A stretch of 64,000 nucleotides of DNA from Modestobacter sp. VKM Ac-2982 (GTDB taxonomy: Bacteria; Actinomycetota; Actinomycetes; Mycobacteriales; Geodermatophilaceae). Position 1 is the first letter of the stretch, and every line of letters starts with the position of its first letter. The position numbers and the translations under genes were made by a program. This document shows positions 20,583 to 62,324 of this stretch, in pieces. The stretch is from contig NZ_JAPVBL010000001.1 of assembly GCF_026967935.1 (NCBI RefSeq), forward strand, positions 124,001-188,000, given 5' to 3'. The notes under the pieces were generated by a model that ran no database searches, was not told where the DNA came from, and saw only the letters and a program-made list of their open reading frames with translations.

Positions 20583-20629
20583 CCGATCCGGCGCACCGGC
20601 GTGTCGGGCCGGTCTGGTGGGATGGGCGG

Positions 20630-21574
20630 ATGCGCACCCCCCTGGTGATCGACACCGACCCGGGCATCGACGACGCACTGGCCGTGCTGCTCGCGCTGGC
20701 CAGTCCCGAGGTCGACCTGCAGCTGGTGACGACGGTGCACGGCAACGTCGGCCTGGCCGAGACGACCGAGAACGCGCTGCGGGTGCTGCACCTGGCGGGA
20801 CGGTCGGACGTGCCGGTCGCCGCCGGTGCCCGCACCTCGCTGGTCTTCCCCCAGCCACAGCGGGCGGGGCACGTGCACGGGGAAGCCGGCCTGGGCGGCG
20901 TCGTGCTGCCGCCGTCCCCGGCCGCGGTCGACCCCCGGCCCGCGGTGGTGGCGCTGGCCGAGCTGCTGCTGGCCAGCGAGCAGCCGGTCACCGTGGCCGC
21001 CATCGGCCCGCTGACCAACATCGCGCTGCTGCTGGGCGTGTACCCCGAGGCGGCGGCGCGGATCGGCCGGCTGGTGGTGATGGGCGGCTCGGCGACCCGC
21101 GGCGGCAACGTGACCGCGGCCGCGGAGTTCAACGTGTGGGCCGACCCGGAGGCCGCCGCAGCGGTGTTCGGTGCCGGCCTGCCGACCGTGCTGGTCGGCC
21201 TGGACGTCACGCTGCCCACGGTGCTCACCGACCCGGACATCGCCCGGTTCGCCGCGGCCGGCCCGGTGGGTGACCGCGCGGCGGCGATCCTGCAGCAGTA
21301 CGTCGACCACGCCCGCAGCAGCTACGGCGTCGACGGGGTGGTGGTGCACGACGCCCTGGCGCTGGCCGAGGCGATCGTGCCGGGCACGCTGACCACGGTG
21401 CGCCGGGACGTCGTGGTGGACACCGGGCACGGCGCCGGGCGCGGGCAGACCCTGGTGGACCGCCGGACGACGTCGTCCTCGGCCACCGCGGTGGCGGTGG
21501 CCGAGGACGTGGACAGCGAGGCGGCGGTGGAGTTCCTGGTCAGCCGCTTGTGCGGGCTGGCCCAGCGGACCTGA
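20630..21574 (+). CDS. Nucleoside hydrolase (IunH family)
   Basis: 314 residues. It begins with the calcium-binding motif DTDPGIDDALA at residue 9 and has GNVGLAETTENAL, IGPLTNIALLL, MGGSATRGGNVTAAAEFNVW and HDALALAEAI, which together define ribonucleoside hydrolases. The enzyme cuts the N-glycosidic bond of purine or pyrimidine ribonucleosides to base and ribose in the cytoplasm, for salvage. ATG 20630 is chosen over a longer frame from 20570 because the family starts just before this motif. Its stop abuts the stop of the convergent transporter gene (TGATCA). Confidence 0.9.
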   Translation: MRTPLVIDTDPGIDDALAVLLALASPEVDLQLVTTVHGNVGLAETTENALRVLHLAGRSDVPVAAGARTSLVFPQPQRAGHVHGEAGLGGVVLPPSPAAVDPRPAVVALAELLLASEQPVTVAAIGPLTNIALLLGVYPEAAARIGRLVVMGGSATRGGNVTAAAEFNVWADPEAAAAVFGAGLPTVLVGLDVTLPTVLTDPDIARFAAAGPVGDRAAAILQQYVDHARSSYGVDGVVVHDALALAEAIVPGTLTTVRRDVVVDTGHGAGRGQTLVDRRTTSSSATAVAVAEDVDSEAAVEFLVSRLCGLAQRT

Positions 21575-23385: not shown

Positions 23386-24575
23386 CCCTCCACCTCGTCG
23401 CGGGTGCGCTGGATCGCGGCCATCACCGTCTCCACCACCATGACGCCGGCGACGCCGTCCCGGCCGGTCACGACGACACCGCCCTGACTGGCGGCGAGCA
23501 TCGTGTCCAGTGCGTCGTTGAGGGTGGAGCGCAGCCCGACCACCGGGAGCTTCTCGTCCACGGTGTCGGGCACGGTGGACACCCGGGACAGCTCTGCCAG
23601 CGACGGCCAGCTGATCGGCCGGCCGCGGCGGTCGGTGACCACGACGTACTTCTCCCCGGCGGCCGACGCGCGGCGGACGACCTCGGCGGCGTCCTCGCCG
23701 ACCTGGGCCTGCTGGGGGTGGATCAGCTCGACGTCCCCGACCCGGGTCAGGGTGAGCTGCTTCAGGGTCGCGCCGGCGCCGACGAAGTCGGCGACGTACT
23801 CCTCCGCCGGGTCGGCGAGGATCGCCTCCGGGGTGTCGTACTGCACGACGCGGGCGCCGACGTCGAAGACGACGATCCGGTCACCGAGCTTGACGGCCTC
23901 GTCGAAGTCGTGGGTGACGAAGACGATCGTCTTGCCCAGTTCCTCCTGGATGCGCAGCAGCTCGTCCTGCAGCCGCTGGCGGGTGATCGGGTCGACCGCC
24001 CCGAACGGCTCGTCCATCAGCAGGACGGGCGGGTCTGCGGCGAGCGCCCGGGCGACCCCGACGCGCTGCTGCTGACCACCGGAGAGCTCGCGGGGGTACC
24101 GGTCGCGGTACACCTCCGGGTCCAGGCCGACCAGCTCGAGCAGCTCGTCGACCCGGGCGGCGATCCGCTTCCGGTCCCACTTGAGCATCCCGGGGACCAG
24201 GCCGATGTTGGTGGCCACGGTCATGTGCGGGAAGAGGCCGCCGGCCTGGATGACGTACCCGATCCGGCGGCGCAGCTGGTCGGCGTCCTGGCCGGTGACG
24301 TCCTCGTCGCCCAGGAAGATCTTGCCGCTGGTCGGCTCGACCAGGCGGTTGAGCATCTTCAGCAGCGTGGTCTTCCCACAGCCGGAGGGGCCGACGAACA
24401 TGACCATCTGGCCGGCCGGGATGTCCAGGTCGACGGCGTCGACGGCCGGCTTCGCCTGCCCGGGGTAGCTCTTGGTGACGCCCTCGAGCCGGATGGAGAC
24501 GCCGCTGACCTGGCGCTCGGCGCCGGCGGGCTGCTCGACGGTGTCGCCGGTGGTCTCGGCGATGGTGTCAGACAC
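23382..24575 (-). CDS. Osmoprotectant ABC transporter ATPase with CBS domains
   Basis: 397 residues. ABC ATPase domain with Walker A GPSGCGKTT (about residue 65), Q-loop YVIQAGGLFP, signature LSGGQQQR, Walker B VLLMDEPFGAVD and THD. The C-terminal 110 residues form a tandem CBS pair (VVTDRRGRPISW, GVVVTGRDGVAGVMVVE). In OpuA/OpuC-type importers these domains sense ionic strength or cyclic di-AMP. The N-terminal 25 residues are not conserved. It overlaps the upstream permease gene by eight bases and the downstream one by four. Confidence 0.93.
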   Translation of the reverse strand: MSDTIAETTGDTVEQPAGAERQVSGVSIRLEGVTKSYPGQAKPAVDAVDLDIPAGQMVMFVGPSGCGKTTLLKMLNRLVEPTSGKIFLGDEDVTGQDADQLRRRIGYVIQAGGLFPHMTVATNIGLVPGMLKWDRKRIAARVDELLELVGLDPEVYRDRYPRELSGGQQQRVGVARALAADPPVLLMDEPFGAVDPITRQRLQDELLRIQEELGKTIVFVTHDFDEAVKLGDRIVVFDVGARVVQYDTPEAILADPAEEYVADFVGAGATLKQLTLTRVGDVELIHPQQAQVGEDAAEVVRRASAAGEKYVVVTDRRGRPISWPSLAELSRVSTVPDTVDEKLPVVGLRSTLNDALDTMLAASQGGVVVTGRDGVAGVMVVETVMAAIQRTRDEVEG

Positions 24576-25209
24576 GGATGCCCCTCGAGGTGGTGAGGCG
24601 ACCGACCAGCACGAGCACCACGTCCAGGACGAGGGCCAGCAGGACGATCGCGATGGTCCCGACGAGCGTGGCGTTCAGTGCGTTCGCACCGCCCAGCCGG
24701 GAGAGTCCGGAGAAGATGAAGCTGCCCAGGCCGGGGCCGAGCACGTAGGCGGCGATCGCGGCGATGCCCATGACCATCTGGGTGGAGACCCGGATGCCGG
24801 CCAGGATCACCGGCCACGCGAGCGGCAGCTCGATCCGCAGCAGCGTGCTCAGCCGGCTCATCCCGATGCCGCGGGCCGACTCCACCAGCGAACGGTCGAC
24901 GCCCGCCAGGCCGACGACGGCGTTGCGCAGGATCGGCAGGGCCGCGTAGAACGTCACGGCCAGCACCGCCGGGGTGATCCCGAACCCGAACGGCGCGAGC
25001 AGGATGCCCAGCAGCGCGAAGGACGGGATGGTCAGTCCGATCGCGGAGAGCCCGTTGGCCAGCCCGGTCAGCCGTGGGCTGCGGTAGGCCAGCACGGCCA
25101 GCCCGATCGCTATCACGGTGGCCAGCAGCACGCACTGCACCACCAGGCTCACGTGCTGGAAGGCCTGGAAGGCGATCAGCCCGCGCCGGTCGACGAGGTA
25201 CTCCCACAT
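24568..25209 (-). CDS. Osmoprotectant ABC transporter permease, first gene of operon
   Basis: 213 residues with five to six membrane segments and the coupling loop DRSLVESARGIGMSRLSTLLRIELPLAWPVI, nearly the same as in its partner at 22555. It starts at ATG 25209 (MWEYLVDRRGL) with a G-rich AGAGGGGG site upstream. A much longer open frame upstream is not coding in character. Order permease-ATPase-permease-binding protein with overlapping ends means a single transcript, whose promoter should lie in 25210-25450. Confidence 0.9.
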   Translation of the reverse strand: MWEYLVDRRGLIAFQAFQHVSLVVQCVLLATVIAIGLAVLAYRSPRLTGLANGLSAIGLTIPSFALLGILLAPFGFGITPAVLAVTFYAALPILRNAVVGLAGVDRSLVESARGIGMSRLSTLLRIELPLAWPVILAGIRVSTQMVMGIAAIAAYVLGPGLGSFIFSGLSRLGGANALNATLVGTIAIVLLALVLDVVLVLVGRLTTSRGIRV

Positions 25210-25576
25210 CGGCCCGCCCCCTCTCCGCGCCCGGACCACGGCCGGCCGGGCGTTCGTCGTCCTCGTGGTGCCGCACACGGTCCGGCGAGGACACGGGCGA
25301 CCTGGTGGGCGAGCGTCCCCGGCGCGCACGGCGCAGCAGCGAGGGGCACCACCGCCGAGCCCGAGCGGTACCGAGCACGGCGGCCTCATCTCGGCCGTGT
25401 GACACGGTGACACACCCGTCGTCCGGCTGGCGACCCCAGGCGCATGACGAAGTGATGACGGTCCCCGCCGCGGGGGCCGGGCGGGACTGTCCTGCCCCGA
25501 TCGGGGTGAGGGGGTCAGCCGGTCTCCTCCGCGAGCACGTCCGCGGAGGAGACGATCGGGGACGGACACGACGCAC
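25210..25576. promoter_or_regulatory. Divergent regulatory region (367 bases without a gene)
   Basis: No convincing gene on either strand. It holds a direct repeat GTGACAC (25399-25405 and 25407-25413, period eight), which lies about 190 bases upstream of the transporter operon, a 12-base palindrome CCCCGATCGGGG (25495-25506), and a strong hairpin at 25522-25553 ahead of the STAS gene. It presumably carries promoters for both the osmoprotectant importer and the STAS gene. Confidence 0.5.
25522..25553 (+). promoter_or_regulatory. Perfect 12-bp hairpin in the STAS gene leader
   Basis: GTCTCCTCCGCG (25522-25533) pairs perfectly with CGCGGAGGAGAC (25542-25553) around an eight-base loop. Its 3' arm contains GGAGGAG, like the real ribosome binding site GGAGGAGG about 40 bases later, so the 5' arm could alternatively pair with that site. 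It might be a terminator, or a leader structure controlling translation. Confidence 0.5.
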
Positions 25577-25999
25577 GTGTCCTGGTCTGGAGGAGGACCC
25601 ATCAACACGGTCAGGTCGGCAGCCGACGAGGCCCCGTTCCAGGTGCGGCTCGCCGACGGCCCAGAGCCGGGGCAGCTCGTCGCCTCGGTGTCCGGTGAAC
25701 TGGACGCCGCCAGCAACCCGCTCCTGCAGCAGACGCTGCTCACCGCACTGCGCCGGGCGGAGCGGCTGCTGACCATCGACCTGTCGGGGGTCACCTTCTT
25801 CGGGTCGGCCGGCGTCACCGCTCTGGTCTGGGTCAGCCAGCACCCCGAGGCCGCCGGCAAGCACGTCGGGGTCATCGCCACCAGCCGGATCGTCACCGGT
25901 CCGCTGGAGCTGACCGGGCTGCTCCCGCGGCTGGACGTCCAGGGCATGCCCGGGGTCTCGGCCGGCTCCCCGGGCGACCCGGAGCAGGCGCGGCGCTGA
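25577..25999 (+). CDS. STAS-domain anti-sigma factor antagonist
   Basis: Up to 140 residues. Core FQVRLADGPEPGQLVASVSGELDAAS, then LLTIDLSGVTFFGSAGVTALVW with the phosphorylatable Ser region (F-GSAG), as in SpoIIAA/RsbV. It would bind an RsbW-type kinase and free a sigma factor when dephosphorylated. The start is a puzzle. GTG 25577 lacks a ribosome site, whereas a perfect GGAGGAGG (25589-25596) sits just before an ATC codon (25601) in the same frame. A GTG near 25643 is too deep in the domain. The neighbouring HATPase gene at 26097 is the natural partner; SpoIIE phosphatases at 13813 and 33243 may act on it. Confidence 0.8.
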   Translation: MSWSGGGPINTVRSAADEAPFQVRLADGPEPGQLVASVSGELDAASNPLLQQTLLTALRRAERLLTIDLSGVTFFGSAGVTALVWVSQHPEAAGKHVGVIATSRIVTGPLELTGLLPRLDVQGMPGVSAGSPGDPEQARR

Positions 26000-26096: not shown

Positions 26097-26579
26097 GTGA
26101 GTGCACTGGTCTGGCCCTCGGCCGACGTGCCCCACGAGGACGGCGACGTCTGGCGCTGGGAGCTCCCGACGGTGCACGACGCGTCCCGGGTCCGGATGGA
26201 CCTGCGGGCCCGGCTCGCCCACCCGTCCCTCGCCGCCCGGTCCACCGAGGACGCCCGCGAGGGCCTGCTGCTGGTCTTCGAGGAGCTCAGCTCGAACGCG
26301 CTGCGGCACGGTGGCGGTGCGGTGGTGGCGGTGATCGTCGCCGTCCCGGCCGGCTGGCTGATCGTGCTCACCGACGGTTCGCCCGACTCCCCGCCGCGCC
26401 CGGCGGTCGACCGCGACCCCGCGTACGGCGGCATGGGTCTGCCCATGGTCGCCCAGCTGTCGGTCGACTACGGCTGGTGCAGCGAGGCCGACCGCAAGCA
26501 CGTCTGGGCCCGGTTGCCCTCCGGGCTCGCCACCGCGTCGGTCCCCCGGCCGCGCTCCTCCTCCGGTCCGGGTCTCTGA
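26097..26579 (+). CDS. RsbW-type ATP-binding regulator
   Basis: 160-residue HATPase_c protein similar to the one at 13366: both start with a W-W-L/S pattern and share FEELSSNALRHGGG (N-box) and a glycine loop (AYGGMGLPMVAQLS). The central nucleotide loop is degenerate (TDGSPDSPPRP), and the C-terminal 20 residues are a Ser/Pro/Arg tail. GTG 26097 follows GGGAGG by eight bases. It lies 97 bases after the STAS gene on the same strand, so the two probably form an antagonist/anti-sigma pair. No sigma factor gene is adjacent. Confidence 0.78.
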   Translation: MSALVWPSADVPHEDGDVWRWELPTVHDASRVRMDLRARLAHPSLAARSTEDAREGLLLVFEELSSNALRHGGGAVVAVIVAVPAGWLIVLTDGSPDSPPRPAVDRDPAYGGMGLPMVAQLSVDYGWCSEADRKHVWARLPSGLATASVPRPRSSSGPGL

Positions 26580-51854: not shown

Positions 51855-51889
51855 CCCGGGCGGCGGGTTCCGCGGCACCGCCGCCCGGG
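51855..51889. terminator. Strong terminator hairpin
   Basis: CCCGGGCGGCGG (51855-51866) and CCGCCGCCCGGG (51878-51889) pair perfectly over 12 bp, with an 11-base loop. It lies 12 bases after the EEP gene stop and can also face the minus-strand S4 gene. Confidence 0.72.
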
Positions 51890-54582: not shown

Positions 54583-54673
54583 GCCGGGCGTGACCCCACC
54601 CGGCCGCCTCCTGCTGGGTCGCAGGGGCACGGCCTGTGCGGCCGGGCGCCCGGGGCAACCCGCCCGGGAACGC

Positions 54674-54704
54674 AGCAGGGGCCGCCCCATGGGCGGCCCC
54701 TGCT
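54674..54704. terminator. Perfect 14-bp terminator hairpin
   Basis: AGCAGGGGCCGCCC (54674-54687), a three-base loop (CAT), then GGGCGGCCCCTGCT (54691-54704). It lies 12 bases past the 3' end of tRNA-Leu and 92 bases past the DUF1707 stop, so it serves both. Confidence 0.78.
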
Positions 54705-54715
54705 GGTCGTTCTGG

Positions 54716-55854: not shown

Positions 55855-56319
55855 GTGACCGCGGAGATCGTGCTGCAGGCGTTCCGCTTCGGCTTCCTGA
55901 TCCTGCTCTGGCTGTTCGTCTTCGCCGCCTTCCGGGTGGTCCGCGCCGACCTGTTCGGCGGCCGGGCCGGCCGGGTGGCCTCGGTGCCGCCCCGCGCCGC
56001 CGCCGCCGCCCGCAAGCGCGGTGGCCGCGGGCCCCGCCACCTCGTCGTCACCGCCGGCCCGCTGTCGGGCACCCGGATCACCTTGGGGGAACAGGCCATC
56101 CTGATCGGCCGCGCCGATGACTCGACGCTGGTGCTCACCGACGACTTCGCCTCCTCACGGCACGCGCGGCTGACCAACCGCGGCGGCCAGTGGTACGTCG
56201 AGGACCTCGGGTCCACCAACGGCACCTACCTCGACCAGCAGCGCGTGCAGGGTCCGCTGCTGGTCGCCCCCGGCCAGCCGATCCGGATCGGGCAGACCGT
56301 CCTGGAGCTGCGTTCATGA
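55855..56319 (+). CDS. fhaB: FhaB/FipA-type FHA domain protein
   Basis: 154 residues. One membrane helix near the N-terminus (FRFGFLILLWLFVFAAFRVV), then a basic linker and an FHA domain (about 65-150): ILIGRADDSTLVLTDDFASSRHARL and VEDLGSTNGTYLDQQRV. The Thr in LVLTDDFASSRHA matches the kinase site in mycobacterial FhaB. GTG 55855, 34 bases after fhaA. It overlaps pstP (ATGA). Confidence 0.93.
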   Translation: MTAEIVLQAFRFGFLILLWLFVFAAFRVVRADLFGGRAGRVASVPPRAAAAARKRGGRGPRHLVVTAGPLSGTRITLGEQAILIGRADDSTLVLTDDFASSRHARLTNRGGQWYVEDLGSTNGTYLDQQRVQGPLLVAPGQPIRIGQTVLELRS

Positions 56320-60612: not shown

Positions 60613-62324
60613 TGGCGGTCCGCGTGGGCAGCATGCTGGCCGGCCGCTACGAGATCACCGCCCCGATCGCCACCGGCGGGATGGGTGAGGTCTGGCAGGC
60701 CCGCGACCGCACCCTCGGCCGGATCATCGCGGTCAAGGTGCTGCGCAGCGAGTACACAGGCGACTCGAGCTTCCTCATCCGGTTCCGCAACGAGGCCCGG
60801 CACACCGCCGCCCTGTCGCACCCGAACATCGCCTCGGTCTACGACTACGGCGAGACGACCGAGGACGGCCAGCGCCTGGCCTACCTGATCATGGAGTTCG
60901 TCGAGGGCAAGCCGCTGGTCACCGTCCTGGCCGAGCGCGGGCGGCTCACCGCCGAGCAGACCCTCGACGTCCTCGGGCAGGCCGGTGACGGCCTCTCCGC
61001 CGCACACGCGGCCGGCATGGTGCACCGGGACATCAAGCCGGGGAACCTGCTCGTGCGCCCGGACGGCGTGGTCAAGCTGACCGACTTCGGCATCGCCTAC
61101 GCCCGCGACGCCGCCCCCCTCACCCGCACCGGCATGGTGGTCGGCACCGCGCAGTACCTCTCCCCCGAGCAGGCCCAGGGGCACGTGGTGACCGCCGCCT
61201 CCGACGTCTACTCCCTCGGCGTGCTCGGGTACGAGTGCATCGCCGGGGTGCGCCCGTTCGACGGCGAGTCGCAGGTGGCGATCGCGCTGGCGCAGATCAA
61301 CCGCCCCCCACCCCCGATGCCCGCAGACGTGCCGTGGCAGGTCCGGGCCCTGATCGAGCGGTGCCTGGCCAAGGACCCGGCGGCCCGCTTCCCCGACGGC
61401 GCGGCCTTCTCCGACGCGGTGCGACGGGTGGCGGCCGGCGGCACCGTGCCGGCCGCCACCGCCATGACCCAGGTGGTCGGGGACGACGGCACGGCGACCA
61501 CGATGCTCCCGGCGACCGGCCCCGGCACCGCCCTCGGCCCCACGACCGCGCCCCGGACCATGCCGCCGTTGCACGGCCCCCCGGTCGACGGCGACGGAGC
61601 GAGCACCTGGACCGGCGGGGAGGCCGACCCGCAGGACGTCCGGCGCACCCGACTGCTGTGGGCGGCCGCCGCACTGGCCCTCGTGGGGCTGATCGCCGCC
61701 GGGGTGTTCCTGCTCCAGTTGGGATCCGACGACCCGGACGGCTCGGCCGCGTCGCCGGGCACCAGCTCCGCCTCGGCCTCCGCGTCGGCGAGCAGCAGCG
61801 CCTCCGGGACCTTCGCGTTCGACGTGACCGACTACGTCGGGGACGACGCCGACACCGTGGCCGACGAGCTCGAGGAGCTCGGCTTCGAGGTGCGGCAGCG
61901 GGAGGCCACCGCCACCGAGCTGGCGGCGGCCGACGTGGCCCTGGCGGAGAACGCCGTCGTGACCGCCAACCCGGCGCGGGCCACGCTGACGCCCGGGGCG
62001 ACGGTCACGCTGGCCGTGGCCGCCGAGGCCTACGCCCCCGAGGCCGAGCAGGACGGCGACGAGGGCGACGCACCGGCGCCGGCGGCACCCACCCCCGACA
62101 GCGAGGACGACGAGGACGACGGGCCCACCACCCCGACGACCGCCACGGTCACCGCCACGGTCACCCGGAGCAGCCAGCCGACCACGAGCAACACGAGCAC
62201 GTCGGCTGCCCCGACGTCGACGTCCCCGACCTCCTCGGCCGCCCCGACGTCGACGTCCCCGACCTCATCGGCCGCCCAGGAGGACGGCGCGTTGGGGCAG
62301 ACCAACACCGCGGACCTCCCATGA
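60612..62324 (+). CDS. pknA: PknA: Ser/Thr protein kinase
   Basis: 570 residues. Kinase domain (about 12-275): IATGGMGEV, IAVKVLRSEY (Lys), MVHRDIKPGNLLV, LTDFGIA and QYLSPEQAQG. One membrane helix (about 347-368) is followed by one PASTA-like domain (about 395-475: VTDYVGDDADTVADELEELGFEV) and a Thr/Ser-rich tail. PknA of M. tuberculosis has no PASTA domain, so this is a lineage difference. It phosphorylates cell-division and cell-wall proteins and itself. ATG 60612 overlaps the pbpA stop. pknB follows after 136 bases. Confidence 0.94.
   Translation: MAVRVGSMLAGRYEITAPIATGGMGEVWQARDRTLGRIIAVKVLRSEYTGDSSFLIRFRNEARHTAALSHPNIASVYDYGETTEDGQRLAYLIMEFVEGKPLVTVLAERGRLTAEQTLDVLGQAGDGLSAAHAAGMVHRDIKPGNLLVRPDGVVKLTDFGIAYARDAAPLTRTGMVVGTAQYLSPEQAQGHVVTAASDVYSLGVLGYECIAGVRPFDGESQVAIALAQINRPPPPMPADVPWQVRALIERCLAKDPAARFPDGAAFSDAVRRVAAGGTVPAATAMTQVVGDDGTATTMLPATGPGTALGPTTAPRTMPPLHGPPVDGDGASTWTGGEADPQDVRRTRLLWAAAALALVGLIAAGVFLLQLGSDDPDGSAASPGTSSASASASASSSASGTFAFDVTDYVGDDADTVADELEELGFEVRQREATATELAAADVALAENAVVTANPARATLTPGATVTLAVAAEAYAPEAEQDGDEGDAPAPAAPTPDSEDDEDDGPTTPTTATVTATVTRSSQPTTSNTSTSAAPTSTSPTSSAAPTSTSPTSSAAQEDGALGQTNTADLP
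62205..62270 (+). repeat. Tandem 33-bp repeat in the pknA tail
   Basis: Two units (62205-62237 and 62238-62270), nearly identical, each encoding AAPTSTSPTSS in the extracellular Thr/Ser-rich tail. Likely a recent in-frame duplication. Confidence 0.75.

Follow-up and report, generated by a model that had tools for sequence, protein, structure and literature searches.

The window, a 64,000-nucleotide stretch of DNA from a genome of 4.78 Mb (contig C1) with Modestobacter as its nearest named relatives, has a GC content of 75.6% and carries a gene for a STAS-domain protein of the anti-sigma-factor-antagonist type (Table 1). The closest solved structures to its product are those of an anti-sigma factor antagonist (4qtp) and of RsfB (8ih8). 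The protein scores 47.1 bits against the Pfam model STAS_2, whose cut-off is 29.2, and 41 bits against STAS, whose cut-off is 22.6; with the protein read from an ATC codon, residue 24 is the first of the STAS domain. The serine of its FFGSAG or GSAG motif, which we take to be the phospho-site of the RsbV/SpoIIAA type, is present in 17 of 18 STAS proteins from the same genus and is replaced by proline in L024. About 100 nt downstream of the STAS gene lies a gene for an RsbW-like HATPase. The pair resembles RsbV/RsbW (SpoIIAA/SpoIIAB) modules in that a STAS protein with a presumed phospho-site serine is encoded beside an ATPase with N and G2 boxes (EELSSNALRHGGG and GGMGLPMV, each identical in all 18 same-genus loci). 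It differs from them in that the ATPase falls below the curated Pfam cut-off (HATPase_c_2, 23.2 bits; cut-off 27.4), in that its G1 region is degenerate by eye (e.g., DGSPDSPP or DEAPDRPP), and in that the neighboring genes that were read showed no sigma gene.

Table 1. Features of the STAS locus and of infC in the same genome (positions in the window unless a contig is named; "." denotes no strand)
Feature	Position	Strand	Remarks
ABC-transporter permease, divergent from the STAS gene	24568–25215	-	First gene of an operon running to 21575 (from ORFs)
Palindrome CCCCGATCGGGG between the divergent genes	25496–25507	.	From alignment; possible promoter or operator
Perfect 12-bp hairpin with SD-mimic arm, GTCTCCTCCGCG-AGCACGTC-CGCGGAGGAGAC	25522–25553	+	Loop of 8; unique to this strain in the comparison
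In-frame GTG, alternative upstream start without SD; judged not to be the start	25577–25579	+	GTG at -24 in 6/18 orthologs
Shine-Dalgarno (SD) sequence GGAGGAGG	25589–25596	+	Two registers, spacer 7 or 4
STAS-domain gene, anti-sigma-factor-antagonist type	25601–25999	+	132 aa from ATC; stop 25997–25999
ATC, very probable start codon of the STAS gene	25601–25603	+	ATC in 18/18 distinct same-genus orthologs
In-frame GTG, alternative downstream start (+42); judged not to be the start	25643–25645	+	SD score 0 in this strain
RsbW-like HATPase, anti-sigma/kinase type	26097–26579	+	GTG start; ribosome site GGGAGG by eye
infC (L142)	G000:C10, about 20586–21083		ATC behind AGAGGAGAGG

On its other side, the STAS gene faces a divergent ABC-transporter operon that is of the osmoprotectant type by eye. 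Within the flank compared, its permease gene neighbors the STAS gene in 13 of the 18 same-genus loci and six of the eight Klenkia-group loci. In the intergenic region, the CGATCGGGG part of the palindrome is identical across six close relatives in the alignment, and GTGACAC repeats at 25397–25415, partly conserved in these six, are possible operator or promoter sites. A scan with consensus promoters and terminators gave no match. Across the genome, a SigBFG model has seven matches, one of which exceeds the cut-off; this match, on contig C7, has a STAS paralog about 2 kb away (C7:30740–31411 and C7:33619–33939), and a classical SigB-type module may sit at that site.

The reading frame of the STAS gene is open from an in-frame TGA at 25445. 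A sequence-only reading of this DNA had placed GGAGGAGG at ideal spacing before an in-frame ATC at 25601 and had named GTG 25577 as the lone upstream start, one without a ribosome-binding site. Re-reading of the sequence agrees on the first point, with the ATC lying 7 nt from the first GGAGG and 4 nt from the second, and a scan bears out the second, as GTG 25577 is the sole in-frame ATG, GTG, or TTG between the TGA and the ATC and has no SD. A further in-frame GTG, at 25643, is located downstream and was absent from that reading.

Orthologs were compared in order to locate the start. The STAS gene has an ortholog in 18 of 23 genomes of the genus, the other five giving no match at E 1e-20, and a search of the family at the same threshold found a match in 27 of 112 genomes; named genomes supplied further loci. 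Forty-six loci were merged into 30 distinct ones, comprising 18 from the same genus, eight Klenkia-group orthologs, one ortholog from a further genus, and three Klenkia paralogs; 45 weaker, more distant loci (L041–L085) were left out of the comparison. The same-genus proteins are 66–100% identical to that of the window. The sequence-only reading had asked whether orthologs carry ATG at this position: within the genus, all 18 distinct orthologs have ATC behind an SD at the same place, and it is the Klenkia group that has ATG or GTG. The number of contiguous SD bases before the ATC is five or six in 17 of the 18 and four in L023. Because the arrangement of SD and ATC recurs in every same-genus ortholog, it is beyond what chance would produce.

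The pattern of variation among six close relatives changes at the ATC. In the 45 bases before it, the gap-free variable columns number 6/1/1 at codon positions 1/2/3 (14 columns for each position, three further columns being gapped, and only eight variable columns in total); an ungapped count gives 8/5/4. In the 357 bases after it, the corresponding numbers are 8/7/41 (119 columns for each position), such that third-position variation sets in after the ATC and not before it. Residues 2–14 of the ATC-started protein share in this third-position variation, and their sequence is recognizably conserved.

These data bear on two canonical alternatives. Translation could begin at GTG 25577 or at another upstream start, possibly as a leaderless message, with the ATC serving as an ordinary isoleucine codon. 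An in-frame GTG at -24 is indeed present in the six closest species, but these are six of 18, and the codon lacks an SD in the window. The columns upstream do not vary as codons do (6/1/1 before the ATC vs. 8/7/41 after it), and the conserved block found there includes the SD itself. Moreover, three of the 18 orthologs (L018, L022, and L024) have no in-frame ATG, GTG, or TTG between the upstream stop and the ATC; L018 is from a single-contig genome, and the genomes of L022 and L024 are about 70% complete. We consider an upstream start very improbable, although a minor longer form that begins at the GTG at -24 may be made in the six closest species. The second alternative is initiation downstream, at GTG 25643 (+42). 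A GTG occupies the matching valine position in 16 of the 18 orthologs, and the shorter protein would keep the STAS domain, which makes this codon the best remaining canonical candidate. However, its SD score in this strain is 0, L018 and L023 carry GTC instead, residues 2–14 show third-position variation and recognizable conservation, and in most of the 18 species the strong SD would have no start to serve. In L018, the next canonical start downstream, a GTG at +87, already falls within the STAS domain. Initiation at 25643 is scarcely credible on these grounds, and the GTG is taken for an ordinary valine codon.

The case that the STAS gene starts at ATC 25601 thus rests on the SD, the lack of other starts, and the point at which codon constraint sets in; from the sequence comparison we regard this placement as very probable. 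That the codon is ATC rather than ATT is by itself uninformative, since 6871 of 6883 isoleucine codons counted in this genome are ATC. A genuine AUC-initiated anti-sigma-antagonist gene is our best reading of the locus.

Outside the genus, the start differs. The eight Klenkia-group orthologs begin with ATG (six) or GTG (two), exactly aligned with the ATC in four and within one to four codons of it in the other four, and with an SD score of at least 5 in five and of 0 in three. This group includes the Modestobacter-named strain Leaf380 (L035), which has a GTG start and whose genome groups here with the genus Klenkia. In L086, the ortholog from another genus, the start position is occupied by ATA preceded by AGGAGG. 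ATA would be odd as an internal codon, because only seven of the 6883 isoleucine codons counted over 800 kb of the window's genome are ATA. The three Klenkia paralogs (L095–L097) represent a divergent second STAS protein (53–55% identity), and in these a similar protein begins at an ATC after CGAGGACCCC or CGAGGACATC, with an SD score of 4; they constitute a second candidate AUC-start family. In a tree of the 30 proteins the ATC label clusters, with two changes compared with a mean of 7.9 upon shuffling; one entry, L040, was taken from a non-start codon, AAG, and its likely start is a GTG four codons on. The tree gives no firm order to its root or to the deepest branches of the genus, and it does not indicate which start is ancestral.

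The ATPase gene follows the STAS gene in all 18 same-genus loci, that is, those with ATC, and its aligned start is GTG in all of them. It is absent from the compared flank of all 12 other loci, of which the eight with neighbors read carry other genes. A strict correlation between an ATC start and the ATPase partner is nevertheless rejected because L095–L097 have ATC without the partner and L086 has ATA without it in the flank.

The use of ATC by this organism was examined at infC, the gene for IF3, and across the genome. In the same genome infC begins with AGAGGAGAGGCC-ATC, and no SD-backed canonical start was found upstream of this ATC. The infC start was also ATC in 30 of 30 other family loci read (the 30 best-scoring loci among 108 family genomes with a match). 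ATC starts are thus very probably used by this organism. An ortholog survey of 533 pairs, which compared 1.2 Mb of the window's genome with 0.8 Mb of a relative and to which infC was added as a positive control, returned seven ATC candidates, and only infC and the STAS gene stand after inspection. Three candidates were dropped for a GTG two codons before, an ATG directly before, and a GTG directly after the ATC, respectively; two others were internal or antisense by eye. The seven raw candidates are not above background, since ordinary codons score as many or more in the same survey (15 each for CCC and CCG). In a first survey, of 279 pairs, four of five ATC candidates lay inside conserved coding sequence. 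Further ATC starts may have been missed because the survey is coarse and a stricter earlier form of it lost the infC control.

ATC is not a general start codon in this genome. SD-backed ATC is enriched 1.16-fold near gene starts relative to gene interiors, compared with 3.98-fold for ATG and 2.33-fold for GTG (with rare-codon noise reaching 4.15-fold, for AGT). Four STAS paralogs of the same genome have SD-backed ATG or GTG starts (L006 and L007, without a match, were left out); one paralog, L005, has ATG together with an in-frame ATC with a four-base SD beside the start of the aligned domain. In a search of NAT anticodons among the 47 tRNA gene loci, an initiator-type anticodon stem was found in only two, both with the anticodon CAT, and a dedicated AUC-reading initiator tRNA was rejected, as no NAT anticodon other than CAT is found with an initiator stem.

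The leader of the STAS gene contains a perfect 12-bp hairpin, one arm of which mimics the SD. According to the sequence-only reading, the arm that pairs with the GGAGGAG mimic could also cover the real SD. On such a view the CTCCTCC arm would switch between mimic and SD and control initiation. The hairpin and its mimic are exactly as described, and the leader as a whole folds somewhat better than shuffled sequences (z = -2.0; five of 200 shuffles as good). The proposed control does not find support. The perfect hairpin is present in one of the 18 same-genus leaders; some others have different, shorter hairpins, and in two close relatives the CTCCTC arm is preserved but lacks a perfect complement. 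Treated as separate strands, the CTCCTCC arm pairs with the mimic at -24.3 kcal/mol and with the real SD at -14.9 kcal/mol, and this difference of 9.4 kcal/mol leads us to expect that the arm spares the real SD. In the predicted fold the SD pairs elsewhere and not with this arm, and its predicted openness of 0.46 is unremarkable beside the other 17 leaders (range 0.14–0.62). The 18 leaders do not share an alternative fold in which the SD is covered, as would be expected of an attenuator or an SD-sequestering leader. On its own, the hairpin stands out only slightly: when 20 sequences of 64 kb were generated from a first-order Markov model, five contained at least one hairpin with arms of at least 12 and a loop of 3–12 (mean 0.45), and the window holds six such places. 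We regard control by the hairpin as highly unlikely. Other perfect hairpins with arms of 12–16 bp lie at 21474–21509, 51855–51889, 54673–54705, 56232–56266, and 61427–61460; the first of these follows closely on the last part of the ABC-transporter operon and may act as its terminator.

Noncanonical starts of this kind have a known regulatory context, described in Feeney et al. 2017 (PMC5472188). IF3 destabilizes 30S complexes on codons other than ATG, GTG, and TTG, and infC, with ATT in Escherichia coli and ATC in Streptomyces, is the classical case, in which IF3 regulates its own synthesis. In Streptomyces, sigR starts with GTC behind AGGAGGTG and is repressed by IF3, which keeps SigR below its anti-sigma factor RsrA; among 34 Streptomyces genomes, the sigR start is GTC in 32 and GTT in two. 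Very few noncanonical start codons have been characterized experimentally, according to the same source. The STAS gene resembles sigR, as portrayed there, in being an actinobacterial sigma-network gene with a noncanonical start, an extended SD, and genus-wide conservation, and in being followed by a partner gene that has a separate ribosome site. It is unlike sigR, a sigma factor gene with GTC, in that the start is ATC and the product is the STAS antagonist of a partner-switching-type pair, for which an IF3 response would hold by analogy. With infC it shares the same kind of start, ATC, in this very genome; unlike that of the autoregulatory infC, its product has no known part in translation. 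Searches of open-licence literature yielded no noncanonical start in a partner-switching STAS or anti-anti-sigma gene; the open-licence papers found on AUC initiation, PMC10303841 among them, showed no natural bacterial AUC start by title or opening text; and start codon searches on Modestobacter returned only papers that are unrelated by title.

We propose that the ordinary initiator tRNA would start translation of the STAS gene at the AUC with its third codon base mispaired, aided by the very strong SD. IF3 would destabilize this codon on the 30S subunit, such that STAS output would be low and would fall as IF3 rises, a limitation that would parallel that of infC. The RsbW-like ATPase, with GTG and its own ribosome site, would escape the limit; the antagonist would thus stay below its partner because its AUC start is limited and the GTG start of the ATPase is not. 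The partner-switching module would accordingly rest in an "anti-sigma free" state, and the partner would be titrated only upon dephosphorylation of the STAS protein or relief of its translation. To this model as a whole, with an AUC start, limitation by IF3, and an antagonist kept below the ATPase, we assign a probability of roughly two in three. Its parts differ in strength. Limitation of STAS translation by IF3 appears likely by analogy, and the STAS protein is probably held low in this way because its gene starts at ATC as infC does. A low level of the switch protein, as the sequence-only reading expected, is a reasonable view, for which Streptomyces sigR is a close experimental precedent (PMC5472188). 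That the AUC start serves the stoichiometry of STAS protein and partner could equally be true or false, and such stoichiometry cannot wholly explain the non-AUG starts in the family, because L095–L097 and L086 lack the partner.

It could instead be that the ATC is a real start that has drifted neutrally and is rescued by its SD, with no regulatory meaning and no consequential IF3 response. The Klenkia-group orthologs work with ATG or GTG and L086 has ATA, as this explanation would allow. Against it, ATC is retained in 18 of 18 species at 66–100% protein identity although one base change gives ATG, no other convincing case but infC emerged from 533 pairs, and IF3 represses noncanonical starts in both E. 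coli and Streptomyces coelicolor (PMC5472188). Neutral drift seems doubtful in light of these points. IF3 limitation, the preferred reading, is consistent with the three features expected of an IF3-discriminated gene, all of which are found here: a noncanonical start, a strong and well-placed SD, and conservation among relatives, with the start read from comparison alone.

The STAS gene would thereby probably join the small class of genes with noncanonical, IF3-limited starts, in a new place for such a start, the antagonist of a partner-switching-type pair. A more speculative and rather unlikely extension, which follows from the same reading of the AUC start shared by infC and the STAS gene, is that the antagonist is made when free IF3 drops relative to ribosomes, so that the module would sense the state of translation initiation and signal it to a sigma factor. 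If true, a stress-type partner switch would be wired to the translation machinery, with relevance to growth, cold, and recovery from drying, and the signal might reach the divergent osmoprotectant-type transporter operon as well. Gene callers limited to ATG, GTG, and TTG mis-start genes of this type. With ATC conserved in 18 species and canonical starts in the Klenkia sister group, the family offers a one-codon contrast, and the example suggests that actinobacterial sigma-factor networks use IF3-limited starts repeatedly, here at the level of the antagonist.
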